From Verrucomicrobiaceae bacterium (GTDB lineage Bacteria; Verrucomicrobiota; Verrucomicrobiia; Verrucomicrobiales; Verrucomicrobiaceae): 55,607 bases of DNA. The notes beneath the pieces were generated by a model. That model was not told where the DNA came from. It did not search any database and saw nothing but the letters and a program-made list of their open reading frames with translations. The translations under genes and the position numbers were made by a program. Every line of letters begins with the position of its first letter. Position 1 is the first letter of the stretch. The stretch covers positions 1 through 55,607 of the forward strand of contig JAIXVB010000265.1 of NCBI GenBank assembly GCA_027483245.1, read 5' to 3'. This document shows positions 10,075 through 53,636 of this stretch, in pieces.

Positions 10075-10112
10075 GATGTGGTTCGTTTGGTTTGGTTCGT
10101 TTGGTTTTGCCT
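10075..10112 (-). promoter_or_regulatory. A/C-rich leader with tandem ACCAAAC-type repeats
   Basis: On the minus strand the leader reads AAAACCAAACGAACC and then AAACCAAACGAACCACATC before the ATG at 10074. It lacks a Shine-Dalgarno motif and resembles the leader at 4964-4990. Confidence 0.5.
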
Positions 10113-33579: not shown

Positions 33580-34416
33580 TCATCGCAGAGAGTCATCCTC
33601 TCTCACCTGCTGTTCCAAATGGCGAAGGGCGGTGAGCATGGCTTCCCTGCCCTGAGGTTCGCGTTTTCCTTTGATGGTGGCAATGCAGCTCCCCTGCCGA
33701 TGTGTAAACTGGACGACCGAAGTCGCACGCGGTTTTCGAGGTTCCGAGCCTCCTTGATTGCGATGCTTTTCGATCCGGGAACGGATGTCGCGTGTGGTCT
33801 CCCCTGCCCTGGCTGCTGACACAAGCTCTTCCTGCACTTTGGAATCATCGACCGTGGCGATCCGCTGGGCCATTTCATAACCAATGCCCGGAGCGTTACG
33901 CAACTCCTCCTGAAGGCGTGCAGGAAGCTCAAGCACCCGGAGCATGCTGCTCATCCACTGCTCGCTCTTCCCTACTTGTCGGGCGAGTTCGCGCTGGGTT
34001 GCTACAGAGCCGGAATCGAGCAAGGAGCGTAAAGTTTCAGCCAATTCAATCGCCCCAATATTTTCACGCTGGATGTTAGAGATCAAGCTTTTGAATCGGC
34101 GAGTCGTTTGATCATCTGCGTCCCGAACGATGACCTCAACCTCAGAGAGGCCAACAGCTTTGGCCGCACGGTAGCGCCGATGCCCCGTGAGAATTCGATA
34201 ATGTTCTCCGTCTTGGGTGACTGTGATCGGCTCGATAATGCCATGACGACGAACAGACTCGATCATGTCCTCCATGTTGAGGAAGATCTTGCGTTCGTTG
34301 TCAGGATCTTCCTGGAGTCTGTCAATGGATACGATGAAGCGGCCTCGTTTTGGCAGGCCTCCTACAAGACCTGACTTGACCATATCGAGACGGCTTTTGC
34401 CCTGGGGTAATTTCAT
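33580..34416 (-). CDS. parB: ParB/RepB/Spo0J partition protein
   Basis: This 278-residue protein has the N-terminal ParB/Srx-like domain (DRLQEDPDNERKIF, then HGIIEPITV, YRILTGHRRYRAAKAVG with the CTP-binding GHRRYRA motif, and NIQRENI). The central helix-turn-helix is TQRELARQVGKSEQWMSSML. It loads on parS sites and slides as a CTP-dependent clamp. The gene follows ParA by 6 nt. The candidate binding sites are the palindromes at 35854-35877 and 37254-37277. The C-terminal part is short and basic. Confidence 0.94.
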   Translation of the reverse strand: MKLPQGKSRLDMVKSGLVGGLPKRGRFIVSIDRLQEDPDNERKIFLNMEDMIESVRRHGIIEPITVTQDGEHYRILTGHRRYRAAKAVGLSEVEVIVRDADDQTTRRFKSLISNIQRENIGAIELAETLRSLLDSGSVATQRELARQVGKSEQWMSSMLRVLELPARLQEELRNAPGIGYEMAQRIATVDDSKVQEELVSAARAGETTRDIRSRIEKHRNQGGSEPRKPRATSVVQFTHRQGSCIATIKGKREPQGREAMLTALRHLEQQVREDDSLR

Positions 34417-34422
34417 TCTGTT

Positions 34423-35262
34423 TTAAGCGGCGACCGCTTCGGCCAACGGCTCGGTCTGTGAACCAGGATCGTTGGTCTCTGCGGCCTCCGTTTGGGCGGA
34501 GCGCCCATTAGTGAATAATTCGCGAACCTCTTCGACGAGGGCCGCCATGTCCTGCGCTCCTTTGGAAAGAGGGCGGTAGTGGAAGATGCTGCCTCCATTC
34601 TCATCCACCTGTGCCATCCATCCACAAGAGCGTATCTCGCTTCTGGCGGAAGCGATGCCATCATCGCGCAACAATGTCAGAACTCTTTTCCGCAGCCCTG
34701 GCAGCCGGGTAAGATTGCTCAGAACATGCAGCATCTTGAAGTCATTGCCTGATCGGAGTTTAACAAGGAGTTTGTAAATACTGGCATAGCTTCTAACCGC
34801 CTTCGTGCTCTCAAAGGGGACGATGAATGCATCGGCTGGGAAAATCGCATTTTCCATGATCGGAGAGATCTGGTTCGGTGAGTCGATCACAATGAAATCG
34901 AACCGGTCGGCGATGTGTTCCTCGGCGAGCAACTGGGTGAGCATTGATGGGTAACCTTCGGTCTGGCTGATCTCTCTGCCGAGGTCTTCGAGTCCGTCCG
35001 CGCTGGCAACGAAGGACAGTCGTTCAAAGCCAGTTGGCTGAATGACTTCACTCAGGGATTGCTGGCGTGTGAGTGCTGAGACAAGAGTGCCCTCTGGAGT
35101 CAGACCATCCCCTGCGGCAAGCCACTGGGTGACTTGGGCCTGGGGATCGAGATCCATGAGAAGTACACGATGTTCATAGCGTGCGAGTCCGCTGGCCAGA
35201 TTCATCGCTATGGTGCTCTTGCCGCACCCTCCTTTGGCGTTGATAACTGTAATGATATTCAT
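34423..35262 (-). CDS. parA: ParA partition ATPase
   Basis: This 279-residue deviant Walker ATPase has KGGCGKST (10-17), LLMDLDPQAQVTQW as Walker A' and FDFIVIDSP as Walker B. It drives segregation of the replicon together with ParB. Its ATG overlaps the Rep stop by 4 nt, so rep-parA-parB form one operon. The protein is short at the N-terminus with no helix-turn-helix, the type Ib/Soj-like layout. The C-terminal tail after about 255 is Ala/Glu-rich. Confidence 0.94.
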   Translation of the reverse strand: MNIITVINAKGGCGKSTIAMNLASGLARYEHRVLLMDLDPQAQVTQWLAAGDGLTPEGTLVSALTRQQSLSEVIQPTGFERLSFVASADGLEDLGREISQTEGYPSMLTQLLAEEHIADRFDFIVIDSPNQISPIMENAIFPADAFIVPFESTKAVRSYASIYKLLVKLRSGNDFKMLHVLSNLTRLPGLRKRVLTLLRDDGIASARSEIRSCGWMAQVDENGGSIFHYRPLSKGAQDMAALVEEVRELFTNGRSAQTEAAETNDPGSQTEPLAEAVAA

Positions 35263-36977
35263 TCGTTTGGTTGAAATGGTTGGCTGTTAATGGTGACATC
35301 CCACGCCCAGAAGTCTGGAAGGCCTAGAAACTGGCGGAAGGCAAGGATGCGAGATTGATCCGTCTCAAAGGTCTCCATAACCTTTCTAGACCAAGGCTTT
35401 GGATCAGCAGCCAGCTCATCGCGCTCACGATCACGTTTGGCCGTAAAGAGAGCGTATTCACTGGAATCTGAGCGACGCATTTCCTGCTCCCTCATCGCGA
35501 GCCAGGCTATCCACGCTGGTCGATACTGCTTCTCATGGCTCTCACGAGCGTCGATAGAAGCTGCGTGTTTAGCATGGAGCTGAATCTTTTCCATCCGAAC
35601 TAGATAGGCATCGCCCAGTTGGCGGATGGCTAGTTTAAGCGATGGGAAAGGGTTGCGCTGTTCTCGGGCCATTTGCCCTAGCGTTCGCCCCCATTCGGTG
35701 GGTGTGCCTTTCGTTCCCAGAACACCGATCAACCTCTGAACGAATGCCTCGGCAAATTCGGCTTCTTGAGGGGACGGCTCATTAACGGGTTCTCCTTGGT
35801 TGCCCCCATAAGCTGCGTAAAAGCACCGTGCAAACTCCCATCCCGAACTTCCAAAAACTTCGGTCGCCCGAAGTTTTACTGGGGCATTCCATTTTTGTTC
35901 AATCGCCCGTCTGAGCAATCCTGCCGGACTTCGAGCTGGTGCCCTTGCAGGCAGCCAGGCGATCTGTTGCTTGATGGCATCGATGCTGTGTTCCCTGATT
36001 AGCTTGCGGGCAGTCCTCTCACTAAATCCAATGCCAATGAGCGTTTTTGACAATTCATTGTTAGCCGCTGGTTGCTTGTTTGAAGTTTCATTTTCTGGTT
36101 TCGTTTTAATACTGGTTCGTTTTTCCGACTGATCCGTAGGTTCGGATATCTGACCGATACTGGTGTGATTTTCTGACTGATATACGGCTGGTTTGTTTTT
36201 CTGACTGATCAGATAATCCGACCAGCAAAGAGCATAAGTCGCACGGCGTCTTTCGGTTGCCGCAGGGCTAAACCTGCCGTCTTCCACTCTCACGATGTAG
36301 TTTTTCTCCATCGAGGTTCGGATCGCTTTTGCCAGATCGGAGCGACTGCCAAATCGTGCGTAATTTTCTATCTGCTGGTAGGAGAGGGCCACCTGTTGTC
36401 GGCGACGACCATGCTTTGCCTGAAAACCAATGCTGTGACGGATAACGGAGCCTACGACCTTGATCACTGATAATGGCTCATTGGGAATCAGGTCATCAAA
36501 GAACTGATTTGGGATGTCTGTGCGGTTGCCTTCACCTTCAAAAAAGCCCGCAAATTCAGGGTGGCGGGTAGTGTAAGGCAAGGGAGACCAGCAAAGTTGG
36601 TAACGTGCAGATTCTCCAGGATCATGAGCTAACTTGGGCCGTCCTGCCGTCACACACTCAATAAGATGCCCAGCCAGAGCGGCATCGAGAGCAGAGCGAA
36701 TCATGTCTCGGCTTACACCAGCCCTTTGCTCCAGCTCGGAATAGGAAACACGGATCTGCTCCTCTTGAGGATTTCCATTGGCGTCGCACCATCCAAGGGT
36801 CTTTCGCAACAGGTAGGCGACAATGCGGACTACGCCTCTGGGGAAATTGGGAATGACTATGTCGAAGAACTGATTTGGCGTGTAGGTCGTGTTTGAGGTT
36901 GGAGTTTTAAAACCCTGAAAGGTTGAAGAAGCCTTGCTGCTGAGGGATCTTTTACGTTCCGTGACAGGAGTCAGCAT
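35259..36977 (-). CDS. Plasmid replication initiator-like protein with two duplicated winged-helix-like modules
   Basis: This 572-residue protein starts at MLTPVTERK (36977). Residues about 33-131 and 155-243 are an internal duplication: PNQFFD at 34-39 and 156-161, IPN.P..V.... in both, then helical DNA-binding patterns (VSYSELEQRAGVSRDMI; LSYQQIENYARFGSRSDL), each module ending Y.LCWS. A polar linker follows (SIGQISEPTDQSEKRT) and a helical C-terminal domain. Position directly before parA and after the oriV-like region makes replication initiation likely, but no named Rep family is certain. One palindrome lies inside the gene (35854-35877). The upstream start at 37064 overlaps the RHH gene. 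Confidence 0.78.
   Translation of the reverse strand: MLTPVTERKRSLSSKASSTFQGFKTPTSNTTYTPNQFFDIVIPNFPRGVVRIVAYLLRKTLGWCDANGNPQEEQIRVSYSELEQRAGVSRDMIRSALDAALAGHLIECVTAGRPKLAHDPGESARYQLCWSPLPYTTRHPEFAGFFEGEGNRTDIPNQFFDDLIPNEPLSVIKVVGSVIRHSIGFQAKHGRRRQQVALSYQQIENYARFGSRSDLAKAIRTSMEKNYIVRVEDGRFSPAATERRRATYALCWSDYLISQKNKPAVYQSENHTSIGQISEPTDQSEKRTSIKTKPENETSNKQPAANNELSKTLIGIGFSERTARKLIREHSIDAIKQQIAWLPARAPARSPAGLLRRAIEQKWNAPVKLRATEVFGSSGWEFARCFYAAYGGNQGEPVNEPSPQEAEFAEAFVQRLIGVLGTKGTPTEWGRTLGQMAREQRNPFPSLKLAIRQLGDAYLVRMEKIQLHAKHAASIDARESHEKQYRPAWIAWLAMREQEMRRSDSSEYALFTAKRDRERDELAADPKPWSRKVMETFETDQSRILAFRQFLGLPDFWAWDVTINSQPFQPNE
35854..35877. promoter_or_regulatory. 24-bp palindrome, candidate parS or Rep-binding site, copy 1
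   Basis: The arms AAAACTTCGG and CCGAAGTTTT flank a TCGC centre inside the rep gene. The inverted form recurs with 23 of 24 bases matching at 37254-37277. The arms are perfect. The size and symmetry suit a dimeric partition or replication protein. Confidence 0.6.
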
Positions 36978-36985
36978 CACAGCAT

Positions 36986-37186
36986 TTAAAGGTGAATCAC
37001 AGGCTCTGACTTTGCAGATTCGACTTTCTGCCGCCCCTGTTCGAAGAGCCACTTTGAGTACCACCGCAACACAGCATTGATAATGAAGCTTCGGCTCCTT
37101 TGCTGATCACGCGCCAGTCCATCAATGAACGAGAGAACATCACTCTCGAATTTCACCCCTGCCGATTTTCTCACGATTTTTTGCAT
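36986..37186 (-). CDS. Ribbon-helix-helix DNA-binding protein (CopG/Arc-like)
   Basis: This 66-residue basic protein has an RHH pattern: a beta strand VKFESDVLSFIDGLA, then RDQQRSRSFIINAVLRWYSKWL as two helices. It is probably an autorepressor of the rep-par operon or copy-number regulator. The gene stands 8 nt before the rep start and just after the DnaA box and palindrome. Such RHH genes commonly precede rep on plasmids. Confidence 0.8.
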   Translation of the reverse strand: MQKIVRKSAGVKFESDVLSFIDGLARDQQRSRSFIINAVLRWYSKWLFEQGRQKVESAKSEPVIHL

Positions 37187-40487: not shown

Positions 40488-40871
40488 TCACTCAAGCGGT
40501 TTTGGATGCATCTCGTGAGGCATGATTGCAAGTTCCATGATGCGCATGCGCACTTCTGCGCTGGGGCATGTAGAGCCCTTTTCAAGTTTACGATAAATTT
40601 CCGGTGCTACTCCAATTGCAGATGCCATGGTCTTTTGATCAAAGCCCTGACATCTTCGTGCCTTTAGCACGATTTCTGATTCGCTAATTCCCGTGGAAGG
40701 GTAATACCCTAGAAATCTCAACAAACTCGGCCATTCTGAGATTACGGGCATGCGGATGTCGCGCTCCCACCGTTCGTAAACCTCTCTTAAAGTCCCCAAA
40801 TGCGATGCTACATCCTCTTGTCGAAGGCCCAGAGTAAGACGATGTTTTTTTAGGTGCTCCCCGAGTGTCAA
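40488..40871 (-). CDS. XRE-family helix-turn-helix regulator
   Basis: The protein (about 127 residues) has one HTH (TLGEHLKKHRLTLGLRQEDVASHLG at the N-terminus), FLGYYP after it and a second HTH-like repeat (FDQKTMASAIGVAPEIYRKLE). The WERD and WPSLLRFLGY motifs are typical of this XRE subfamily. No ATG is in a suitable place; TTG at 40871 gives LTLGEHL, the usual N-terminus, so an unusual start codon is proposed. The frame runs on upstream to 41159 through a separate gene remnant and should not be read as one protein. Confidence 0.75.
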   Translation of the reverse strand: MTLGEHLKKHRLTLGLRQEDVASHLGTLREVYERWERDIRMPVISEWPSLLRFLGYYPSTGISESEIVLKARRCQGFDQKTMASAIGVAPEIYRKLEKGSTCPSAEVRMRIMELAIMPHEMHPKPLE

Positions 40872-41284: not shown

Positions 41285-41439
41285 GATCCACCCCTCTGAC
41301 CCATCGCCTTTGCACTGCCTGTCAAAAAAGTTCGAGACGTCAAAATCCCGGAATGGTTGTCCGGCGAATGCCCCGGGGAATCAGCCGCCGTGCGGGCATC
41401 TTCTCCGCTCAGAGGCCAGGGAATGAGCTTCCCAACCCC

Positions 41440-41720
41440 GACTTCCGAAGCCACAACCTCCCCTTTCGGCTTCGCATCCCCTGGCGCGGGAGTTCAAAAC
41501 ACCGTCTTCAGCTTCATATCCTCCGGTTTGAACTCCCGAACCCCGCCCGACGAAGCCGCAACCCCGACCTCGGAAGCCAAAGACTCCTCATCGAAAGCCA
41601 AAAGCACCGCCTCGGGAGTTCAAACCGCTCGATTGGAAGCCCAATTCCCAGCCTGCGGAGTTCCTACCGCAGTTTTCGAAGCCGCATCCCCAGGATTCAG
41701 CTTCAAAAACTCAGGTTCGA
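41440..41720 (+). repeat. Degenerate 21-nt tandem repeat array (about 13 units)
   Basis: GAAGCC, GAGTTC or their near variants recur about every 21 nt (41447, 41468, 41490, 41511, 41552, 41573, 41594, 41616, 41636, 41658, 41679, 41699). In frame (41357-41734) this gives a 7-residue repeat with E-A or G-V at the start (EAATPTS, EAKDSSS, GVQTARL, EAQFPAC, GVPTAVF, EAASPGF). Both a coding heptad array and a DNA-level array with two helical turns per unit are possible. No start signal or known protein supports a gene. Confidence 0.7.
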
Positions 41721-41886
41721 ACTATCAAACCTGAGAATTTGAAGTCGAAAACTCTTTTTCTTAAGCCTTAACTTGTCAATAATCGCTCTTTTTGCCATGT
41801 TGATCCCCGATTCGCCATTCTGACCCGCTCAGTTTCGCTCCGTCGGGTTGGATTGGTGAGTTCCCCCACCCTAACTAGATACTGCC

Positions 41887-42264
41887 ATGCCAAATCCCAA
41901 GGTCAGAGTTGACATCCCCAGCGATCCCACAGCCAAGATCGCCCTGCTCAAGAGGGTCAAAACCAAGCACGAAGAACTCGCGGCAAATTCCCCACTCAAA
42001 GGCTTGAAGTGGGAAACCGTCATCGCCCCAGCACTCGCCCGAGCCGAGACCGCTGACCAGCTCAGCGATGAACTCCGCCGCAAGCGCGAGAAAGCCACCG
42101 GCGAACGCGACGTGGAGATGCCCACCGTCACCGAAGCCCTGCGCTCCGCCCGCGACGTGCTCCTCGGCTTGAACCGCGACAACCCCGACGCCCTCGGTGA
42201 CTTCGGCTTCGATGTCGCCGACGCCACCAGCTCGTCGCCATCCACACCCCCACCCGCCAAATAA
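41887..42264 (+). CDS. Small protein of unknown function
   Basis: This 125-residue protein starts MPNPKVRVDIPSDPTAKIALL, has a helical middle (HEELAANSPLKGLKWETVIAPAL; RAETADQLSDELRRKREKATG) and ends Ser/Thr/Pro-rich. No family is recognised and no TM segment or motif is present. It is followed by a perfect hairpin (42281-42311). It is on the same strand as the restriction island but separated from it by 570 bp. Confidence 0.65.
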   Translation: MPNPKVRVDIPSDPTAKIALLKRVKTKHEELAANSPLKGLKWETVIAPALARAETADQLSDELRRKREKATGERDVEMPTVTEALRSARDVLLGLNRDNPDALGDFGFDVADATSSSPSTPPPAK

Positions 42265-42833
42265 AGCGGCGGGATCACGGCGGAGACAGGTCCTCAGTCG
42301 GCCTGTCTCCGTCCTTCGCAGTCCTTGCTTCGCCCAAAGACGACTCAAGCGGCTTGCATCCAGGATTGACAAGATGCGCAGGATTCACCGGATTTTTCAG
42401 TTCGTTCAATCCTATTCGCCGCAGCTTGAGTTCGTCGTTCGGTCACGCGTGCTGCGGGACCGTCTGGAAACGTGATCGCTGGCTGAGTTCAAAGAACATG
42501 CTGAAGCATGAACAACGAACCAAGAACCAAGAACCGCACGACCAGCCCCCACCTCTGCAGCCCCCGAACAACCCGGCAGCGAAAAACCCCAGCGCGCCAA
42601 ACCCGGCTTCATCAGCAAAGACCTCCTCCCCGCAAAGGCGAGCAGCCGCAGGATCTCCAGCGCCGCCTCAAACGCTTCCGTGAGCAAGTGCCCGGCGGGT
42701 TGTGAGCAGTCCGCAGTCTCCTCCACTCCTCGTCTTCCTTCCTTGCGCTCTGCGCAATTCCTTGCCTTCGGAGTCATTCCCCGCTTGGATGCGGGAAATC
42801 TCTACTGCGCTTTCCCTTTTTGCCTTCCTCTGG
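42265..42833. other. Intergenic region before the restriction island, with hairpin
   Basis: The region starts with the hairpin CGGAGACAGG/CCTGTCTCCG (42281-42311), a probable terminator without a T-run. It then has degenerate AGGATT-type sequence (about 42360-42395) and a GAACCAAGAACCAAGAACC repeat near 42520. Several short frames lack coding character. The promoter of the helicase operon is expected near the right end but was not identified. Confidence 0.45.
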
Positions 42834-45800
42834 ATGGAAATCATCGACAACATCAATCAGCTCCTCGGGGAGAACCTCAAGCAGACTCTCACGCCGGGTT
42901 CCAAGCTGCGCATTGCAGCGTCCTGTTTCTCTATTTATGCCTTCGAGGCGCTGAAGGCAGAGTTGGAGAAAATCGATTCGCTGGAGTTCATCTTCACATC
43001 CCCCACCTTTGTCCCGTCAGATGTGACGGACAAACTCAGGAAGGAACATCGGGAGTTTCACATTCCTAAACAGCAACGCGAGCGCAGTCTCTGCGGCACC
43101 GAGTTTGAAGTTCGCTTGCGCAATGAACTGACACAAAAAGCCATTGCCCGAGAGTGTGCAAATTGGATGCGTCGGAAGGCGCAGTTCCGCTCAAATCGCA
43201 CCCAGGCTCCCATGCAGCAGTTCATCACCGTGAGCGGTGGCGAGGGCAATGCCGCTGCTTATATGCCACTGCATGGCTTCAGTGCTGTCGATCTAGGTTA
43301 TGAGAAGGGCAATGCCGTTTCTAACTTGGTGAACAAGATGGATGAGCCGCCAATGACGAGCACCTATCTCGCCCTGTTCGAGCAGATTTGGAACGACAAG
43401 GAGAGATTGGAAGATGTGACGGCCAAACTCTGCGAGCACATCGCCTCCATCTACCAGGAGAATTCCCCTCAGCGCATCTACTTCCTGATGCTCTACAACA
43501 TCTTCAATGAGTTTCTCGAGGACCTCAATGCGGATGTGTTACCGAACGACCTCACCGGCTATCAGGACAGCCTCATCTGGAAAAAGCTGTTCAACTTCCA
43601 GCGTGATGCCGCCACCGGCATCATCAACAAGCTGGAGACCTACAACGGCTGCATTCTCGCCGACAGCGTGGGGCTTGGTAAGACCTTCACCGCACTCGCT
43701 GTGGTGAAATATTACGAGCTGCGCAACAAGTCCGTGCTTGTGCTCTGCCCGAAGAAACTGGCTGACAACTGGCTCACTTACAAAGGCAACCAAGTCACCA
43801 ACATCTTTGTCAAAGACCGCTTCGGTTATGACGTGCTCTGCCACACCGATCTGCTGCGTGAGAGTGGTTATTCCTTCGGCATGCCGCTCAATCGCATCAA
43901 CTGGAGCAACTACGACCTCGTTGTGATTGACGAGTCACACAATTTCCGCACCAATGATCTCTACCGCGAGCGTGAGACCCGCTACCAGCGCCTGCTAAAT
44001 CAAGTCATCCGCCAGGGCGTGAAGACGAAGGTGCTCATGCTCTCGGCCACGCCGGTAAACAACCGATTCTCCGACCTCAAGAACCAGCTCGCGCTGGCTT
44101 ACGAAGGCAATCCTGAAAACCTGAATTCCAAGCTGCGCACCGAGAAAAGTATCGACGAAATTTTCCGCCGGGCGCAAGCAGCCTTCAATGCGTGGTCAGC
44201 CCTGCCACCGAATGAGCGCACAGCCGCCACCATCCTGGGCTCCCTGGACTTCGATTTCTTCGAGGTGCTTGACAGTGTCACCATCGCTCGCTCACGGCGG
44301 CACATCCAGACCTACTACGACACGAAGGACATCGGCACTTTCCCAGAGCGTTTGAAGCCGCTTTCCTTCCATTGCCAGCTCACGCAGCGTAAAGATGTCA
44401 TAGGCTTCAATGACATCTTCAATCAACTCACTCTGCTAAAGCTGGCGATCTACGCCCCTCTCAGCTACGTCCAGCCGAGCAGGCTTTTCAAATACGAGCC
44501 GGAATACGAAGAGGATGACGATGGGGATGGCTCAAGCAATCTTGGCCAGAGCGGCCGTGAAAAGGGCATTCAGGCGCTCATGACGGTGAACCTGCTCAAG
44601 CGCCTCGAAAGCTCCGTGCATTCCTTCCGGCTCACCCTGAAGAGCCTCGCGGACAACCATCACCACACGATGAAGAAGATCACGGCCTTCAAGAAGACGG
44701 GGAAAGATGCCACTTTTGCGGATGTCTCCCCTTCCTTTGCCGATGCCGAACCCGAGGACGAAGGCGAGTTTCCCGATCCTGAGGACGCCCAAATCGGCAA
44801 GAAGGTGCAGATCAGTCTGAGCGACATGGATCTCCCGGCATGGGAGCATGAATTGCGAGCTGACCTTACCATCATTGAGGCTCTGTGGGAGGAAATGCAC
44901 AAGATCACTCCAGCGGATGATGCCAAGCTCCAGCACCTCAAGACCACCGTCCTGAGCAAGCTCGCTTCGCCCATCAATCCAGGGAACAAGAAAGTGCTCA
45001 TCTTTACTGCCTTTGCCGACACCGCTAATTACCTCTTTGATCAACTCGCTCCCTTCTTCCTGGAAAAAAATCACCTCCATACGGCCAAGGTGATTGGTGG
45101 CAACACCACCAAGAGCACCCTCACCAAGCATTACGATTTCCAATCGCTCCTCACGCTCTTCTCCCCACGTTCGAAAGAGAAAGCCGCCATCCTGCCGAAG
45201 GAACCTGCCGAGATCGACATCCTCATCGGCACCGATTGCATCTCAGAGGGTCAGAACCTCCAGGACTGCGACTACCTCATCAACTACGACATCCACTGGA
45301 ATCCTGTGCGCATCATCCAGCGCTTTGGCCGTATTGATCGCATTGGTTCCAAGAACCAATGCATCCAGCTTGTCAACTACTGGCCGGACATCTCGCTCGA
45401 TGAATACATCAAGCTCAAGGAGCGCGTCGAAAACCGCATGGTCATCGTGGATGTCGCAGGCACTGGCGACGACAACCCACTCGATGCCAGGGCGAATGAC
45501 CTAGCCTACCGCCGTGAGCAGCTTCGCCGCCTTCAAGAGGAGGTCATCGAGCTGGAGGATCTCAAGACCGGCATCTCCATCACCGATCTTGGCCTGAACG
45601 ATTTCCGAATGGACTTGCTGAACTATGCGAAGGCTCATGGGGACCTTTGCAACATGCCCAATGGCATGCACGCGGTCGTGCCTGCTGCCCCTGAGCGCGG
45701 ACTGCCGCCCGGTGCCATCTTTGCCCTGCGGAACCGCAATGACGGGGTAAACATCAACCGGCAGAACCGCTTACATCCCTACTACCTCCTTTATGTCGGG

Positions 45801-46223
45801 CAGGACGGGCAGGTGATCGTCAATCACACCGAGCCGAAACGTCTCCTCGACCTCGCCCGCGCTGCTTGCAAAGAACGCCCTGACCCCATCCCGGAAGTCT
45901 ATCAGCCGTTCAACAAGGCCACCAAGGACGGACGGAGCATGGATGCCTATTCCGAGCTGCTAAACCAGGCCATCCGCTCAATGATCGAGTTGAAGGAGGA
46001 GAAGGACATCGACAGCCTCTTCTCGGGCGGCAAAACCAGCGCTCTGCTTAACACCATCAGCGGGCTGGATGACTTCGAGTTGATCGCCTTCCTCGTCGTC
46101 TATGATTCGGCCTCGTCTGATGGCGGCACGACACGCAAGGTCATTGAGACGCTGCTCAAGAAGCGGGGGGTAAAGGTCACCAGTGAACTCATTTATGAGA
46201 TCATGGAAAAGGAGAGAATCTGA
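42834..46223 (+). CDS. SNF2/DEAD-like helicase with N-terminal PLD-like domain
   Basis: This 1129-residue protein is the first gene of the restriction island. Motif I is SVGLGKT (about 279-285), motif II VIDESH (about 363-368), motif III LSATPVNNR, motif VI QRFGRIDRIGSKNQ (about 829). The part before the helicase core (residues about 1-190) resembles the phospholipase-D-like nuclease fold that often precedes such helicases. It probably moves along DNA and supports restriction, as in DISARM-like or type III-associated systems. The start at 42834 gives MEIIDNINQLLG; upstream frames lack coding character. PIN, DUF4391 and mod genes follow at 6-15 nt. Confidence 0.9.
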   Translation: MEIIDNINQLLGENLKQTLTPGSKLRIAASCFSIYAFEALKAELEKIDSLEFIFTSPTFVPSDVTDKLRKEHREFHIPKQQRERSLCGTEFEVRLRNELTQKAIARECANWMRRKAQFRSNRTQAPMQQFITVSGGEGNAAAYMPLHGFSAVDLGYEKGNAVSNLVNKMDEPPMTSTYLALFEQIWNDKERLEDVTAKLCEHIASIYQENSPQRIYFLMLYNIFNEFLEDLNADVLPNDLTGYQDSLIWKKLFNFQRDAATGIINKLETYNGCILADSVGLGKTFTALAVVKYYELRNKSVLVLCPKKLADNWLTYKGNQVTNIFVKDRFGYDVLCHTDLLRESGYSFGMPLNRINWSNYDLVVIDESHNFRTNDLYRERETRYQRLLNQVIRQGVKTKVLMLSATPVNNRFSDLKNQLALAYEGNPENLNSKLRTEKSIDEIFRRAQAAFNAWSALPPNERTAATILGSLDFDFFEVLDSVTIARSRRHIQTYYDTKDIGTFPERLKPLSFHCQLTQRKDVIGFNDIFNQLTLLKLAIYAPLSYVQPSRLFKYEPEYEEDDDGDGSSNLGQSGREKGIQALMTVNLLKRLESSVHSFRLTLKSLADNHHHTMKKITAFKKTGKDATFADVSPSFADAEPEDEGEFPDPEDAQIGKKVQISLSDMDLPAWEHELRADLTIIEALWEEMHKITPADDAKLQHLKTTVLSKLASPINPGNKKVLIFTAFADTANYLFDQLAPFFLEKNHLHTAKVIGGNTTKSTLTKHYDFQSLLTLFSPRSKEKAAILPKEPAEIDILIGTDCISEGQNLQDCDYLINYDIHWNPVRIIQRFGRIDRIGSKNQCIQLVNYWPDISLDEYIKLKERVENRMVIVDVAGTGDDNPLDARANDLAYRREQLRRLQEEVIELEDLKTGISITDLGLNDFRMDLLNYAKAHGDLCNMPNGMHAVVPAAPERGLPPGAIFALRNRNDGVNINRQNRLHPYYLLYVGQDGQVIVNHTEPKRLLDLARAACKERPDPIPEVYQPFNKATKDGRSMDAYSELLNQAIRSMIELKEEKDIDSLFSGGKTSALLNTISGLDDFELIAFLVVYDSASSDGGTTRKVIETLLKKRGVKVTSELIYEIMEKERI

Positions 46224-46231
46224 ACACGGCC

Positions 46232-46642
46232 ATGTTCCTCCTCGACATCAATATACTGATTGCCCTGGCTGATCCAGATCATGTTCATCATGATCGGGCG
46301 GAAGCTTTCTTCCTGGCGAATCACAAGGCTGGCTGGGCGACGTGTCCGATCACCGAAAATGGATTCGTTCGGATCATCAGTCATCCGAAGTATCCGAAGG
46401 GACCGGGATCACCGGACCTTGCTCGGGACGTGCTGCGGCAACTTTGTGCTCATGAGGGGCATCGATTCTGGCCTGACGATGTCTCGCTGCGCAGCTTTGG
46501 CAGCCTGCCTGTTTCCAAGCATCTGACGGACCAATATCTTCTGAGCCTTGCCATCCATCGCCAAGGCAAGCTGGCTACGTTTGATGGTCACATCAACGCC
46601 GCACTCATACCGGGTGGAACGGCGGCCTATGTTGTGATTTAG
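46232..46642 (+). CDS. PIN-domain protein (VapC-like ribonuclease)
   Basis: This 136-residue PIN-fold protein has FLLDINILIALAD with the first catalytic Asp, CPITENGFVRI with the conserved Glu, LTDQYLLSLA with the second Asp pair, and LATFDGHI with the last Asp. VapC toxins cut tRNA or other RNA. No VapB-like antitoxin is beside it: it starts 8 nt after the helicase stop and DUF4391 follows after 6 nt. It may therefore be a solitary PIN effector of the restriction operon. Confidence 0.88.
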   Translation: MFLLDINILIALADPDHVHHDRAEAFFLANHKAGWATCPITENGFVRIISHPKYPKGPGSPDLARDVLRQLCAHEGHRFWPDDVSLRSFGSLPVSKHLTDQYLLSLAIHRQGKLATFDGHINAALIPGGTAAYVVI

Positions 46643-46648
46643 ACGGCC

Positions 46649-47305
46649 ATGTTCTCCTACCCCAAACAGGCCGAGTTCAACCGCTTGCTCCCGAAGAGCA
46701 AGATCTACGCTCATGCCAAGCCGGGGAAGGCGGTGAAGGATCTCTTCGTCTCGCAGATCGGGGAGATCGTCTGGAAATACAAGCTTTCGCCGGAAACCAT
46801 CAATCTTCCTGCACGCCACGGCATCACCGAGATCCAGGTGTTCGAGATCGCTCTGAAGGGCAAGGAGTTAGATGAGGATGTCCTGCGCACCATCGACAAG
46901 ACCATCCCGTTCCCCATCCTCTTCCAGCTTACCCATGGCGGACGCATCCGCTTCTCCGCCACTTACAAGCGCCCCAGTGATTCCGACTCCACGAAATGGG
47001 TCATCGAGGCCAGCTTCATGACGGATTGGCAGCCAGCCATGCAGGAACGTCCATCGCTTCCCGTCGCCCTTGATCTCGCCAGCCTCTACGAGCACCTCAT
47101 CCGCCGCCACCTTCCGCTGCCGCAGCGCTCCGGTGAGAGCATCCGCGACCACGTCGCCCGCTACACCGCCATCCAGACCAAAGAAAAGGAGTGCCAGCAA
47201 ATGGAAGCCCGCCTAAACAAGGAAAAGCAGTTCAACCGCAAGGTGGAGATGAACGCCGCGCTGCGCAGCCTCCGCCAAGAACTCTCCGACCTTCATCATT
47301 CCTAA
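46649..47305 (+). CDS. DUF4391 domain protein
   Basis: This 218-residue protein starts MFSYPKQAEFNRLLPKSKIY and has VSQIGEIVWKYKLSPETINL, EIQVFEIALKG, FPILFQLTHGGRIRFSATYK and a C-terminal coiled helix. This is the DUF4391 pattern, a family repeatedly seen between type III-like mod genes and SNF2-type helicases. Function is unknown; an accessory DNA-binding or assembly role is likely. The mod gene begins 15 nt later. Confidence 0.85.
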   Translation: MFSYPKQAEFNRLLPKSKIYAHAKPGKAVKDLFVSQIGEIVWKYKLSPETINLPARHGITEIQVFEIALKGKELDEDVLRTIDKTIPFPILFQLTHGGRIRFSATYKRPSDSDSTKWVIEASFMTDWQPAMQERPSLPVALDLASLYEHLIRRHLPLPQRSGESIRDHVARYTAIQTKEKECQQMEARLNKEKQFNRKVEMNAALRSLRQELSDLHHS

Positions 47306-47320
47306 TTCACACTTTCAGCC

Positions 47321-49171
47321 ATGGACAAGCTCAAGCTCCACACGCCGGACCTCACGGCCCAGAACATCGAAAAACTCGCCGCCCTGTTTCCGAACTGCGT
47401 CACGGAGACCACGGATGCCAAGGGCAAGCTCAAGCGCGGGATCGACTTTGACCAGCTCCGCCAGGAACTCTCCGACCATGTGGTGGAGGGGCCGCGTGAG
47501 CGTTATCACCTGGACTGGCCCGGCAAACGTGAGGCCCTGCTCGCCGCCAATGCCCCCATCGCCAAGACCCTGCGCCCCTGCCGGGAGGAGAGCGTGGACT
47601 TCGACACCACCAAGAACCTCTTCATCGAAGGCGACAACCTCGATGCGTTGAAGCTGCTTCAGGAAACTTACCTCGGGAAGGTGAAGCTCATCTACATCGA
47701 CCCGCCTTATAACACGGGGAACGACTTCATTTATGAGGATGACTTCGCGGAGGATACTAACAGTTTCATGGTCCGATCCAATCAGCGTGACTCTGAAGGC
47801 AACCACCTGATCGCCAACACTTCATCAAATGGGAGATTTCATTCAGATTGGATCTCGATGCTCTACTGTCGTCTGAAAATTGCCTGGAATATGCTGGCTG
47901 ATGATGGCCTTCTAATGGTGAGCATAGACGACAACGAAATCGGAAACCTAAGGCGGATTTGTGATGAGCTTTTCGGTGTCGACTCCTTTTTGATTACCTG
48001 TGTTTGGAGACGCAGGCAAGTTGCTGATAGTCGCAATGATGACAGGGCATCAACGGATCACGAATATGTGGTATGTTACAAAAAGCCCAACGCTGTATTG
48101 AAGGGCATTCCCATTGATCAGGACAAATACACAAATCCAGACAATGATCCGCGAGGTCCATGGTTTAGTGACAATCTCACTGGCATAGCCAACCAGAAAG
48201 AACGTCCAAACCTACACTATGACTTGGTGAATTCCGAAACGGGGCGTCGATACCCGCCTTCACCTACTAGAGGTTGGATGTGCGCACCGGAAACAATGGA
48301 GCGTCTCGTTGCCGAAAATCGAATTCTGTGGCCCAACAAGGTCGATGGCAGGCCTCGACTGAAGAAGTTCCTTTTGGAAGCGCGCACGCTAGATACGGGC
48401 ATCTCCTCTTGGTTTGATGATGTTGGATTTACAACCGAAGGCACCAAAGTAATCCAGGACCTGTTTGGTGAGAAGATTTTTCCATTTTCAAAGCCGCTCA
48501 CCCTCCTCAGTAAACTTGTAGTTCAGGCAACCCCAGCTGGGGAAGGTATCATTCTCGACTTCTTTGCCGGCTCAGGCACTACGGCCCATGCTGTAATTCA
48601 AGCTAACGCTGCGGATCAAGGGAATCGGCGGTTTGTAATGGTTCAGATTCCCGAATCGACGGGACGCGAAGATTTCGCTTCAATCTGTGAAATTACTAAA
48701 GAACGCATTCGCCGAGCCGGAGCCAAGATCAAAGCCGAGAACGCCACCACGGCCCCCAACCTCGACATCGGCTTCCGCGTGCTCAAGATCGACACGTCCA
48801 ACATGAAGGACGTGTATTATGCCCCGGATGAGGTGAAGCAGGGGCAGCTCGAACTGCTGACGGACAACATCAAGGAGGAGCGCACACCGGAAGACCTGCT
48901 CTTCCAGGTGCTGGTGGACTGGGGCGTGGATCTAGCCCTGCCGATCACTCAGGAGACGATTGCCAAGAAGAAGGTCTTCTTTGTGGATGGCAATGCCCTG
49001 GCCGCCTGCTTTGACCCGAACATCACCGAGGAGCTAGTGAAGGAACTGGCAAAGAAGAAGCCCCTGCGCGCCGTCTTCCGCGACAGCAGCTACGGCAGCG
49101 ACAGCGTCAAAATCAATGTGGAGCAGATCTTCAAGCTCCTGAGCCCCGGCACGGAACTGAAGTCCCTGTAG
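47321..49171 (+). CDS. mod: Type III DNA methyltransferase (Mod, N6-adenine type)
   Basis: This 616-residue protein has the catalytic motif DPPYNTGND (DPPY at 127-130) and the AdoMet motif LDFFAGSGTTAHAV (about 412-425), in the beta-class order. It would methylate the adenine of the host recognition sequence and carry target specificity for the partner Res. The middle (about nt 47740-48710, residues 140-460) is more AT-rich than both ends, as if the target-recognition part had been exchanged. An Xre-RES toxin-antitoxin pair separates it from res. Confidence 0.93.
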   Translation: MDKLKLHTPDLTAQNIEKLAALFPNCVTETTDAKGKLKRGIDFDQLRQELSDHVVEGPRERYHLDWPGKREALLAANAPIAKTLRPCREESVDFDTTKNLFIEGDNLDALKLLQETYLGKVKLIYIDPPYNTGNDFIYEDDFAEDTNSFMVRSNQRDSEGNHLIANTSSNGRFHSDWISMLYCRLKIAWNMLADDGLLMVSIDDNEIGNLRRICDELFGVDSFLITCVWRRRQVADSRNDDRASTDHEYVVCYKKPNAVLKGIPIDQDKYTNPDNDPRGPWFSDNLTGIANQKERPNLHYDLVNSETGRRYPPSPTRGWMCAPETMERLVAENRILWPNKVDGRPRLKKFLLEARTLDTGISSWFDDVGFTTEGTKVIQDLFGEKIFPFSKPLTLLSKLVVQATPAGEGIILDFFAGSGTTAHAVIQANAADQGNRRFVMVQIPESTGREDFASICEITKERIRRAGAKIKAENATTAPNLDIGFRVLKIDTSNMKDVYYAPDEVKQGQLELLTDNIKEERTPEDLLFQVLVDWGVDLALPITQETIAKKKVFFVDGNALAACFDPNITEELVKELAKKKPLRAVFRDSSYGSDSVKINVEQIFKLLSPGTELKSL

Positions 49172-49182
49172 CGGATGCTTGG

Positions 49183-49212
49183 TTGACATCAAGTTGACAA
49201 CAGGTTTACACT
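49183..49212 (+). promoter_or_regulatory. Sigma-70-like promoter of the Xre-RES pair (nearly leaderless)
   Basis: TTGACA (49183-49188), an 18-bp spacer and TACACT (49207-49212) stand directly before the ATG at 49219, so the start site would fall at the start codon. A second TTGACA (49194-49199) lies in the spacer. This suggests a leaderless mRNA for the antitoxin. Confidence 0.6.
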
Positions 49213-49218
49213 GACGCC

Positions 49219-50013
49219 ATGAGCTATCCAATTGAGACCGTTCCCATTTGCTTCACCGACTCAACCAAGCAGGGGACCATCCCTGTCTGGGCCAAGAAGT
49301 ATAACGCCAGAGGAGTGGCCTATGCCAAGGTGATGGAGGGACAAAGGCCCGGGGTGGTGATTGTTCATGCCAAGAACCCTGGAGAACTTCAAAAACATGC
49401 CCAGCAAACGCGACGCTTGGCGGGAAAGCTAATTCAGGGAAAATCTCCGTTCCAGGTAGTCGTTCATTTTGACAAAGGAACCAAGGGGCAGGAGGTCACA
49501 GAAATGGCAGGTGTCTTCAAGCTATTTCCACGTTTGGCTCCCCGCCTGAATTTCTCCTGGAGTCGTCAGAATCTGAAAGACCGCGTGCTGGAGGCGGCAG
49601 CCAAATACGCCGCCGAAGAAGAAGAGCGTCAAAAGGAATTCCCCGACGCACTCGCTCAAGCGAAGGAGGTGATTGCAGCGACTAGGCAGCTTCGATCGAG
49701 TAGCGGACGGCTATCTGCGACAGCGATTGCCTCTGCTTTGGGGCTCAAGGATGCCCAGATGGCGGCACTGCTTGGCCGCTCCCGACAGGCTCTGGCCAAA
49801 ACGCCAGATGCACCTGCCATTCAGCAGGCGCTGATTCCCTTCGAGCGCATCGTCCGACTGTGCGCCGTGCTCAAAAAGCCCAACTTCCTGGCCTGGCTCC
49901 AAAGAAAGAATCCCCATCTGGATGAGCTTTCCCCCCTTGAGGTCATCACTTCAGGCAGACCCGAAGTGGTGGCCGACTTGGTGGAAGCCATGCTGACTGG
50001 AACTCCCTCCTGA
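49219..50013 (+). CDS. Xre/MbcA/ParS-family antitoxin (DUF2384-like C-terminus)
   Basis: This 264-residue protein pairs with the RES gene 8 nt downstream. Its C-terminus (FLAWLQRKNPHLDELSPLEV, then ITSGRPEVVADLVEAML) is the DUF2384 antitoxin pattern (parS/Xre type, where the last helix blocks the RES active site). A helix-turn-helix-like part precedes it (SATAIASALGLKDAQMAALLGRSRQALAK). The N-terminal 110 residues (VPVWAKK-like, VVIVHAKNPGELQKHAQQ) are unusual for this family. The gene is transcribed from its own promoter. Confidence 0.82.
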   Translation: MSYPIETVPICFTDSTKQGTIPVWAKKYNARGVAYAKVMEGQRPGVVIVHAKNPGELQKHAQQTRRLAGKLIQGKSPFQVVVHFDKGTKGQEVTEMAGVFKLFPRLAPRLNFSWSRQNLKDRVLEAAAKYAAEEEERQKEFPDALAQAKEVIAATRQLRSSSGRLSATAIASALGLKDAQMAALLGRSRQALAKTPDAPAIQQALIPFERIVRLCAVLKKPNFLAWLQRKNPHLDELSPLEVITSGRPEVVADLVEAMLTGTPS

Positions 50014-50021
50014 ACGACACC

Positions 50022-50573
50022 ATGGCCTCTCCTGACCTGAAAACTCTGCTGATTAGCGCTCCCAGGCGTTCTTTCAGCGGGCGCTTGGTGCGTTGCATTC
50101 CCCAGCTCACCTTTCAGAAAGGAAAACCACCAAGTTATCTTTTCACCTCAGGTGTGGTGAACCGCTGCAACCCTGCGGGAATCAAGACTCTGTATTTGGC
50201 TGAGGAGCGTGAAACTGCACTGGCGGAATACGACAGCTATTATATCACACCCGAACCCCAGCTGATCTATTATGCGGACTATGCGGCTGGCGCTGTCATC
50301 GACCTGGGAGATCAGGCAACATGCGATCATTTCGGGCTCAGTGACGATGATTTTTTCAAGGCCTTCAGGTTGGCCACGGCTCCAACAACTCTTCAGCAGT
50401 TAGGGGCAGAGATCGCTGCACAGAAGGTGGTCACAGCGATTCGTTTCCCTTCGAACGCACGCCATCAAAAAGGCGAGTTGGGCTACAACTTTGCTATTTT
50501 CCCTGGCTCACTCCAGTCACCGGATTCCTTGAGTATTCTTGGCAACCCCGCCCCTCTAGAAAGCTGGCCGTAG
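50022..50573 (+). CDS. RES-domain toxin
   Basis: This 183-residue protein has the RES fold pattern: RFLYTSGV-like GVVNRCNPAGIKTLYLAEERETALAEY (Arg, Tyr and Glu of the family), VIDLGD, and a C-terminal FPSNARHQKGELGYNFAIF. RES toxins consume NAD+ (NAD phosphorylase or glycohydrolase activity). It is coupled to its Xre antitoxin. The pair lies inside the mod-res interval, so the toxin may add post-segregational or abortive defence to the restriction system. Confidence 0.87.
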   Translation: MASPDLKTLLISAPRRSFSGRLVRCIPQLTFQKGKPPSYLFTSGVVNRCNPAGIKTLYLAEERETALAEYDSYYITPEPQLIYYADYAAGAVIDLGDQATCDHFGLSDDDFFKAFRLATAPTTLQQLGAEIAAQKVVTAIRFPSNARHQKGELGYNFAIFPGSLQSPDSLSILGNPAPLESWP

Positions 50574-50606
50574 ATAGGTTAACACATTCAAGAACTCCGT
50601 TTTCTT

Positions 50607-53600
50607 TTGAAACTTAAATTCAAACAGCAGGCCTTCCAGACGGATTCCGTCCTTGCCATCCGTGACTGCTTTGCCGGACAACCTGCGAGCAAGGGGAACA
50701 AGTATGCCATTGATCCCGGTCGTGGGGATGCCCAGGGCCAGGCCACGATGGAAGACGTGGTAGGCACTGGCTTTGCCAATGCCCCTTTTGCCATTTCACC
50801 GGTGAAGATCTTGGAGAACCTCCAAGAAGTGCAGCGCCGTCAGGACCTGCCCATTTCCCCCGAGCTGAAGAAGACCTCTGTCTGCGATCTGAATCTGGAC
50901 ATCGAGATGGAGACGGGGACGGGCAAGACCTACTGCTACATCAAGACGATGTTTGAGCTGAACAAGGCCTACGGCTGGAGCAAGTTCATCATCGTGGTGC
51001 CCAGCATCGCCATCCGTGAAGGGGTCTGGAAGTCCTTCGACGTCATGGCCGAGCATTTCCTGGAGGACTACGGCAAGCGCATCCGCAGCTTCATCTACAA
51101 CAGCAAGCAGCTCCACAACCTGGAGAGCTTCTCCTCGGATGCGGGGATCAATGTGATGATCATCAACGTGCAGGCCTTTAACGCCCGTGGCGAGGATGCC
51201 CGCCGCATCTACCTGGAGCTGGATGATTTCCAAAGCCGCAAGCCTATCGACGTGATCGCCAAGAACCGGCCCATCCTCATTCTGGACGAGCCGCAGAAGA
51301 TGGAAGGCAAGGCCACGGTGGAAAAGCTGGCGGACTTCAACCCGCTGATGATCCTGCGCTACTCCGCCACACACAAGACGGAGCACAACAAGGTCTATCG
51401 CCTGGATGCCCTGGACGCCTACAACCAGAAGCTGGTGAAGAAGATCGCCGTGCGCGGCATCAGCGTGAAGGGATTGGCCGGAACGAATGCCTACCTTTTC
51501 CTCAAAGGCATCGACATCAGCCCCAGCAAGGCCCCGGAGGCCCGCATCGAGCTGGAGATCAAGCAGAAGTCTGGCATCAAGCGTGAAGTCCGCAAAGTCA
51601 CCAAAGGAACCAACCTGCAAGACACCTCGGGCGGACTGGATCAGTATGACGGCTTTGTCGTGTCTGACATCGATGCACGGGACGGCGTGGTGACCTTCAC
51701 CAACGGCACCATCATCCAACAAGGCAAGGCCGCCGGGGATGTGAACGAGTCCTCTCTGCGCCGGGTGCAAATCCGCGAGGCCATCAAAGCCCACTTTGAG
51801 AAGGAAAAGGTGCTCTTTGCCAAAGGGATCAAGGTGCTTTCCCTGTTCTTCATCGACGAAGTGGCGAAATACCGCAGCTACACCGATGCCGGTGAGCAGG
51901 CTGGGGAGTATGCCCGAATCTTCGAGGAGGAATACAACCACCAGCTCAATGAGGTGCTGACGCTGGAAGACACGCCCTACAACCGCTACCTGAAAGACAT
52001 CACCGCCAACCGGACGCACAACGGCTACTTCAGCATCGACAAGAAGACGAAGCGTCTGGTGGACCCCGCTGCCAAGAAAAGCGGTGAGAATGCCGGTGAG
52101 ACGGATGACGTGGACGCCTACGACCTCATCCTGAAAGACAAGGAGCGCCTGCTGACTTTTGAGGAGCCGGTGCGCTTCCTTTTCTCCCACTCCGCCCTAC
52201 GGGAAGGCTGGGACAACTCCAACGTCTTTGTCATCTGCACCCTGAAGCACAGCGACAATACCATCTCCCGCCGTCAGGAAGTAGGCCGTGGGATGCGCCT
52301 CTGCCGTGATCAAAGCGGCGACCGCATCGATGATCCGGCTATCGTCCACCAGATCAACGTGCTGACCGTCGTAGCCAATGAGAGCTACAAGGACTTCGTG
52401 GCCGGATTGCAGAAGGACATCGGTGCCTCTCTCTCCGCCCGTCCGCAAAAGGCCAATGAGGAGTATTTCAAAGACAAGGTGCTCAAGACCGAGAAGGGCG
52501 ATGTAAAGGTGACGCCACAGATGGCGAAGCTGATCGAGCGCTATCTGATCAAGAACGACTACACCGACACCCAGGACAAGATCACCCAGGCCTATCATGT
52601 TGCCCAGCGGGAAGGCACGCTCGCACCGCTGCCGCCCGAATTGGCCCCTTACAAGGAACAGGTCTTCCAGCTGGTGAGCACCGTTTTCAGCGCGGGCCAA
52701 ATGCCAGACATCGACGATGAACTAAAAGCCCAGCCCAACCCGCTGAACGCGAACTACGCAAAGAAGGAGTTCCAGGAACTCTGGCACCGGATCAACCACA
52801 AGGCCGTCTATGCCGTGGACTTCAAGACCGAGGAACTGATCCAGAAGTGCATCGAGACATTGAACAAAGAACTCAAAGTCGCGGCACTCCAATACACCGT
52901 CACTGCTGGTGAACAGAAGGACGAGGCTACCTTTGAGGAGGTGAAGAAAGGTGAGTCCTTTCAGCTTCGCGAAAGCACGACTGAGTACATGACGAGCACG
53001 TCGAGTTCAGCGGTGAAGTATGACCTCATCGGCAAACTCTGCGAAGCCACTCAACTCACCCGCCGCACCATCGCGGCCATCCTTCAAGGCATCCTCGCTG
53101 CCCGCTTTGGCCAATTCAGGACCAATCCTGAGCAGTTTATCATGGAGGCGACCCGTCTGATCAACGAACAGAAGGCCACGATTATCGTCGAGCACCTGAG
53201 CTACGACACCACCACCGGAACCTACGAGGCCCCCGAGATCTTTACTCAACGTAAAGAAGACCTCAGCAAGGGCTTCAAGGCCAACAAGCACATCTACGAC
53301 TACGTCTTCACCGACTCGGGCGGCGAACGCACCTTTGTCGGCGAACTAGATGCCAGCACAGAGGTCATCGTCTATGCCAAGCTGCCCAAAGCCTTCTCCA
53401 TCCCAACACCTGTCGGCAATTACAGCCCAGACTGGGCCATCGCCTTCGAGGCAAACAAAGTGAAGCACATCTACTTCATCGCCGAGACCAAAGGCTCCAT
53501 GTCCTCGCTCCAGCTCAAAGACATCGAGAAATCCAAGATCGCCTGTGCCAAGAAGTTCTTCGCCAAGATCACCAACGACCAAGTGAAGTATGAGATGATC

Positions 53601-53636
53601 GACAGCTACGGAAAGCTGATGGAGCTGGTGAAGTGA
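50607..53636 (+). CDS. res: Type III restriction endonuclease subunit Res
   Basis: This 1009-residue protein starts with TTG at 50607 ([18 protein letters not shown], the normal Res N-terminus). Helicase motif I is METGTGKT (about 100-108), motif [10 protein letters not shown] (DEPQ, about 226), and SATHK follows. The C-terminal PD-(D/E)xK nuclease has SPDWAIAF (about 940) and AETKG (about 958). It would cut unmethylated DNA after ATP-driven translocation, in complex with Mod. It reads in the same direction as mod, although separated by the Xre-RES pair. Confidence 0.94.

Follow-up and report, generated by a model that had tools for sequence, protein, structure and literature searches.

An intergenic array of degenerate 21-nt repeats lies just upstream of a small gene in the window (the whole stretch of verrucomicrobial DNA analysed here, 55,607 nt; Table 1), and arrays of closely similar spacing precede the homologues of this gene in the other loci collected. 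With a probability that can be put at roughly 0.55, the array is a cis-acting, helix-phased row of degenerate putative dimer-binding sites, regulatory in function, and the protein encoded by the gene is its probable binder. That such arrays recur before this uncharacterised gene in verrucomicrobia that are not related to one another suggests a novel type of repetitive control site, paired with a gene. Through this pairing, a protein family that has no name is connected to a particular DNA element of unusual length, and the function of both becomes directly testable; if the reading is true, the system would clearly exemplify selection for the geometry of a protein–DNA complex in place of a set motif.

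Table 1. Features of the array and its associated gene (positions are those of the window).
Feature	Position	Strand	Remarks
21-nt array	41446–41781	+	16 units, 0 indels; L080 array in same register
Doubtful 17th unit	41425–41445	+	AGCTTC core in window, TTTGGC in L080
Gene for 125-aa helical protein, undescribed family	41887–42264	+	Purifying selection; homologues; array partner in every locus examined
Candidate promoter TTGTCA-17-CATGTT	41773–41801	+	Identified by eye at downstream array edge; below scan threshold

The 21-nt periodicity remarked on in the initial annotation of the window is borne out by autocorrelation. Over positions 41401–41780, the match at lag 21 is 0.46, against a mean of 0.26 (sd 0.023) for 1000 dinucleotide shuffles; at every lag between 1 and 129, all shuffles stayed below this value. 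Lags 42, 63, 84, 105 and 126 are likewise high, a period fit gives exactly 21.00 nt, and this region is the sole place in the 55.6-kb window with such periodicity. About 13 repeats had been counted between 41440 and 41720; the array is there, but its units number 16, or perhaps 17. Mean identity between units is 47%, which is why the array is not reported by Tandem Repeats Finder (TRF); sites that keep their spacing while their letters change escape motif and repeat finders. There is no 7-nt sub-period, the match in the array being 0.29 at lag 7 vs 0.47 at lag 21.

Each unit contains a pseudo-palindromic core, RR(AG/CT)YY, at unit positions 2–7. Eleven units have AG at the centre of the core and five have CT, so that the orientation is mixed. 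The motifs GAAGCC and GAGTTC, previously listed as recurring elements, do recur, but they are not separate: together with their complements GGCTTC and GAACTC they are all variants of this one core. Further positions of higher conservation, with A, C, C and T, lie between the cores, and unit positions 13 and 15 have a conserved C.

The array can be compared with that of locus L080, from a genome of the same genus (G437), in which the neighbouring gene is found at 89% protein identity. The DNA match spans 41444–42322, array included, at 82% identity (73% for the array as a whole and 91% for the gene), and all 16 units keep register. In 16/16 units the AG or CT at the core centre is identical, orientation included; core centres differ at 0/32 positions vs 92/304 elsewhere (P = 2e-5). 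The four R/Y flanks of the core show 18 transitions and 2 transversions, compared with 28:44 elsewhere (P = 4e-5). Judged from this alignment, selection acts on the DNA words of the array rather than on a peptide, since stop codons are present in the array and none of the frames is clearly preferred, while the gene shows codon-position bias. We infer that AG and CT both occur, with neither becoming the other, because the site can be read from either side, a swap requiring two transversions via a poor intermediate. A core orientation that is frozen but arbitrary would be the pattern expected of a site that reads as well from one side as from the other.

The nine homologous loci were collected by protein similarity alone; the array played no part in finding them. 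They derive from draft genomes, the gene start in L100 is uncertain, and two ortholog pairs (window/L080 and L097/L098) leave seven independent loci of the nine. A tenth, distant homologue (L106, genome G176), which has too little upstream sequence on its contig and gives no periodic signal, was not counted. In 9/9 loci, the best 240-nt window of 20.5/21-nt periodicity in the 5–55-kb neighbourhood sits just upstream of the gene, with its centre 35–533 nt from the gene start. The periodicity contrast upstream of the gene is 0.09–0.27; elsewhere its mean is ~0.01 (sd ~0.015) and its highest value 0.075. Fitted periods for the nine arrays are 21.00, 21.00, 20.75, 21.00, 21.05, 20.50, 20.85, 20.95 and 21.05 nt; spacing is 20.5 nt in L099 and a mixture of 20 and 21 nt in L081. 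The range of 20.5–21.05 nt corresponds to two B-DNA turns at 10.25–10.5 bp per turn, and the earlier equation of 21 nt with two turns of DNA is upheld in the homologous arrays. Barring pairs within one genome or genus, no other genes are common to the neighbourhoods.

The lettering of the repeats, as judged by eye, varies by locus. GAAGCC-like cores occur in the window, L080, L097 and L102, the L081 array is lettered RGACCTNNNAGGTCY, and the L099 and L101 arrays are CGAT-like; across loci, array units are 32–49% alike. Dyad symmetry exceeds that of column-permuted controls in eight of nine arrays (P ≤ 0.03; P = 0.08 for L097), with array borders set by eye from the periodic stretch at each locus. 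The combined P is about 5e-11 over the seven independent loci, with one P value, the better one, entered per ortholog pair, and 0.0005 entered wherever no permutation attained the observed symmetry. The initial annotation had offered a protein-binding array as one of two possibilities; two-turn spacing, dyad symmetry and strict core conservation between relatives agree with this and support the array as a set of putative binding sites.

The link between the array and the downstream gene had been missed in the initial annotation. Differences between the gene and its L080 counterpart fall 10/2/21 by codon position, consistent with purifying selection. The protein has 0 matches in Pfam, NCBIfam, PDB and Foldseek searches. 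Its AlphaFold2 model is a helical hairpin of modest confidence (pLDDT 76, pTM 0.42), for which Foldseek finds no neighbours in the PDB, and no recognised DNA-binding domain was found in the protein. A ribbon-helix-helix fold was considered but is unsupported both by Foldseek and by hhalign, which gives a probability of 0.3% against CopG, NikR and MetJ (small alignments with low power). Homologues share 31–57% protein identity and are scattered over the class, in 6/384 genomes, including the window's own, by a class-wide search and in 2/68 by a family search; owing to this sparse distribution the gene is an accessory gene. No homologues were found in plasmids, phages or viral contigs, and a contig scan of the genomes for further ones returned only loci already in the set. 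A promoter scan gave no consensus promoter above threshold; the L080 counterpart of the candidate in Table 1, also recognised by eye, is TTGTCA-17-CAAAAT.

Array and gene would then form one portable two-part module. With 21-bp units two helix turns apart, all putative sites would lie on one face of the DNA. A dimeric protein, most likely the gene's own small helical product, could occupy the row cooperatively, each site being filled in either orientation. The bound protein would form a stiff nucleoprotein rod, which in turn may control a promoter that lies between the two parts of the module (autoregulation); an additional part in DNA organisation or stability is conceivable. The gene product is the best candidate for the binder because it is the sole thing always present with the array, and because two genomes with two arrays each, G437 (L080, L081) and G348 (L101, L102), have a separate lettering and a separate paralog for each array. 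The choice of this product as binder is weakened in that the protein has no DNA-binding domain that could be found and array motifs do not follow protein distance. Co-evolution of protein and site accordingly finds no support (array-motif similarity vs protein similarity, Mantel r = −0.04, P = 0.57). More tentatively, the loci may represent an undescribed class of Verrucomicrobiota modules, in which a small helical protein polymerises into a nucleoprotein rod on its own helix-phased, two-turn dyad array, the spacing is conserved while the lettering is free between loci, and the role goes beyond autoregulation, for example in DNA organisation, segregation or silencing.

The alternative that survives best holds that the array is a row of regulatory sites for another DNA-binding protein, either a general regulator or the product of the HTH gene at 40488, with the small protein as target only. 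This is possible but clearly the less favoured explanation. The want of a recognised DNA-binding domain in the small protein and the independence of array motifs from protein distance both speak for it, as does the position of the HTH gene on the other side of the array; however, neither an HTH gene nor any other neighbour recurs by the array in other loci, and a shared outside regulator would hardly explain differing lettering within one genome (L101 and L102 in G348; L080 and L081 in G437).

The proposed binding of the array by the product of its own gene has a working analogue in KfrA of plasmid RA3, an α-helical protein, encoded alone in its operon, which acts on a repetitive operator to repress its own promoter (PMC7783346). 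This operator has five 9-bp repeats in both orientations, four of which suffice regardless of orientation (PMC7783346). Of the systems compared, KfrA/RA3 is the closest, as an α-helical single-gene autoregulator with a repetitive two-orientation operator, and its operator may have a counterpart in the putative binding array that precedes the gene at every locus, with both core orientations present in the window. KfrA differs in being a 355-aa protein with an N-terminal HTH, and its 9-bp units lie around −35/−10 (PMC7783346), whereas the window array has 16 units of 21 bp and a partner of 125 aa. Among the nine proteins, L081 alone matches the KfrA_N profile, at 21.9 bits vs a cut-off of 26.1, and the other eight do not, which places the family outside KfrA as delimited by that profile.

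A second analogue, as a small protein with an array of short, mixed-orientation repeats, is ParB (omega) of plasmid pSM19035. This small dimeric ribbon-helix-helix protein fills short repeats of mixed orientation, several contiguous ones being needed; its parS consists of contiguous 7-bp heptads, and it has a ParA partner (PMC9499535). The present arrays fall outside this class, with their 21-bp spacing, a lag-7 match of 0.29 in the window and no ribbon-helix-helix signal in the protein; a reading of the ORF list showed no ParA beside the other loci. Plasmid iterons are repeats of ~17–22 bp with two-turn spacing near the gene of their binding protein; they are alike, in one orientation, and located at replication origins with Rep proteins. 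The present arrays share only the spacing with them: units are 32–49% alike, AG and CT orientations are mixed in the window, the 125-aa protein has no match to a Rep family, and at several of the other loci the surroundings are ordinary chromosomal genes. Bacterial heptameric short tandem repeats are described as intergenic, multi-copy and homogeneous 7-nt units in many places (PMC4692102, PMC4679880). The window array is likewise an intergenic, multi-copy row of short repeats, but it is diverged, without a 7-nt sub-period and tied to one gene. As the initial annotation had rightly stated, there is no CRISPR pattern: near-identical repeats and spacers are absent from the array, and no Cas family occurs among the flanking proteins scanned.

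It is unlikely that the array acts as a structured RNA, transcribed as a row of hairpins in a gene leader or small RNA. Predicted folding is stronger than in shuffles in some arrays (z −4.7/−4.9 for the window, −6.8/−10.3 for L081), but in several the excess is alike on both strands, as dyad symmetry gives, and in L097 and L102 it is absent. Six-base cores of mixed orientation cannot fold alone, and there is no Rfam match up to E = 1; with folding so uneven across arrays, an RNA element was rejected.

Even less probable is a decayed, functionless 7-nt/21-nt tandem repeat of a generic kind. Homogeneous 21-nt arrays do exist in the same genome (L039) and in a same-order genome (L050), neither of them beside the small gene, which the latter genome (G047) lacks altogether. 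Such arrays, however, match at 85–90% at lag 21 and at 0.43–0.51 at lag 7, and the window array shows neither property. Moreover, neutral decay would not preserve 32/32 core positions and exact register, nor would it seven times place an array in front of one and the same gene.

A heptad-repeat peptide (21 nt being seven codons), as the initial annotation had proposed, can be dismissed: although two plus-strand frames are open through the window array, the window and L080 read together have stops in every frame, no clear synonymous bias appears in any of the six frames (the best has 19 synonymous changes vs 12.6 ± 3.3, with 3 stops, in contrast to 10/2/21 for the real gene), and a codon frame, which was to be kept in relatives, is broken in L080 and cannot be kept at periods of 20.5 and 20.75 nt or with the 20.5-nt (L099) and 20/21-nt (L081) spacings.

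The two homogeneous arrays were rejected as relatives of the window array on account of their homogeneity, 7-nt sub-period and missing gene, and are more likely generic repeats. The first (L039, positions 4789–5229 of contig G000:C504) has ~20 copies of the unit TTGGAGTTCGAGGCTCAGGAT with a 7-nt sub-period, and has a UvrD-like helicase gene on one side and a gpsA-like gene on the other; it is perhaps generic, or else a second site used by the same protein. The window array is not a mix of forward and reverse units of this type, as the core alone alternates and the remainder keeps its strand. The second (L050, positions 8530–8907 of contig G047:C55; TCAAAGCTCCGATTTCGAAGC) is just upstream of a DUF1501-looking gene.

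As for the surroundings, the stretch at 33580–37064 has genes for ParA, ParB and a 601-aa protein of no assigned family, which suggests a plasmid- or ICE-like character for part of the window. Immediately downstream, the module is followed by a probable defence island (42702–53636), which encodes a SNF2-type helicase, a DUF4391 protein, a DNA methyltransferase, an Xre/RES-like toxin–antitoxin pair and a type III-like restriction subunit. Judged from their translations, the RND efflux, TolC-like and P-type ATPase genes that follow one another at 1060–22159 would be a metal resistance cluster. Two short repeats in the window, GAACCAA (7 nt, 42517–42535) and TGGTTCGTTTGGTT (14 nt, 10079–10107), resemble the heptameric repeats that further genomes from this class also have (G365, G402 and G335).
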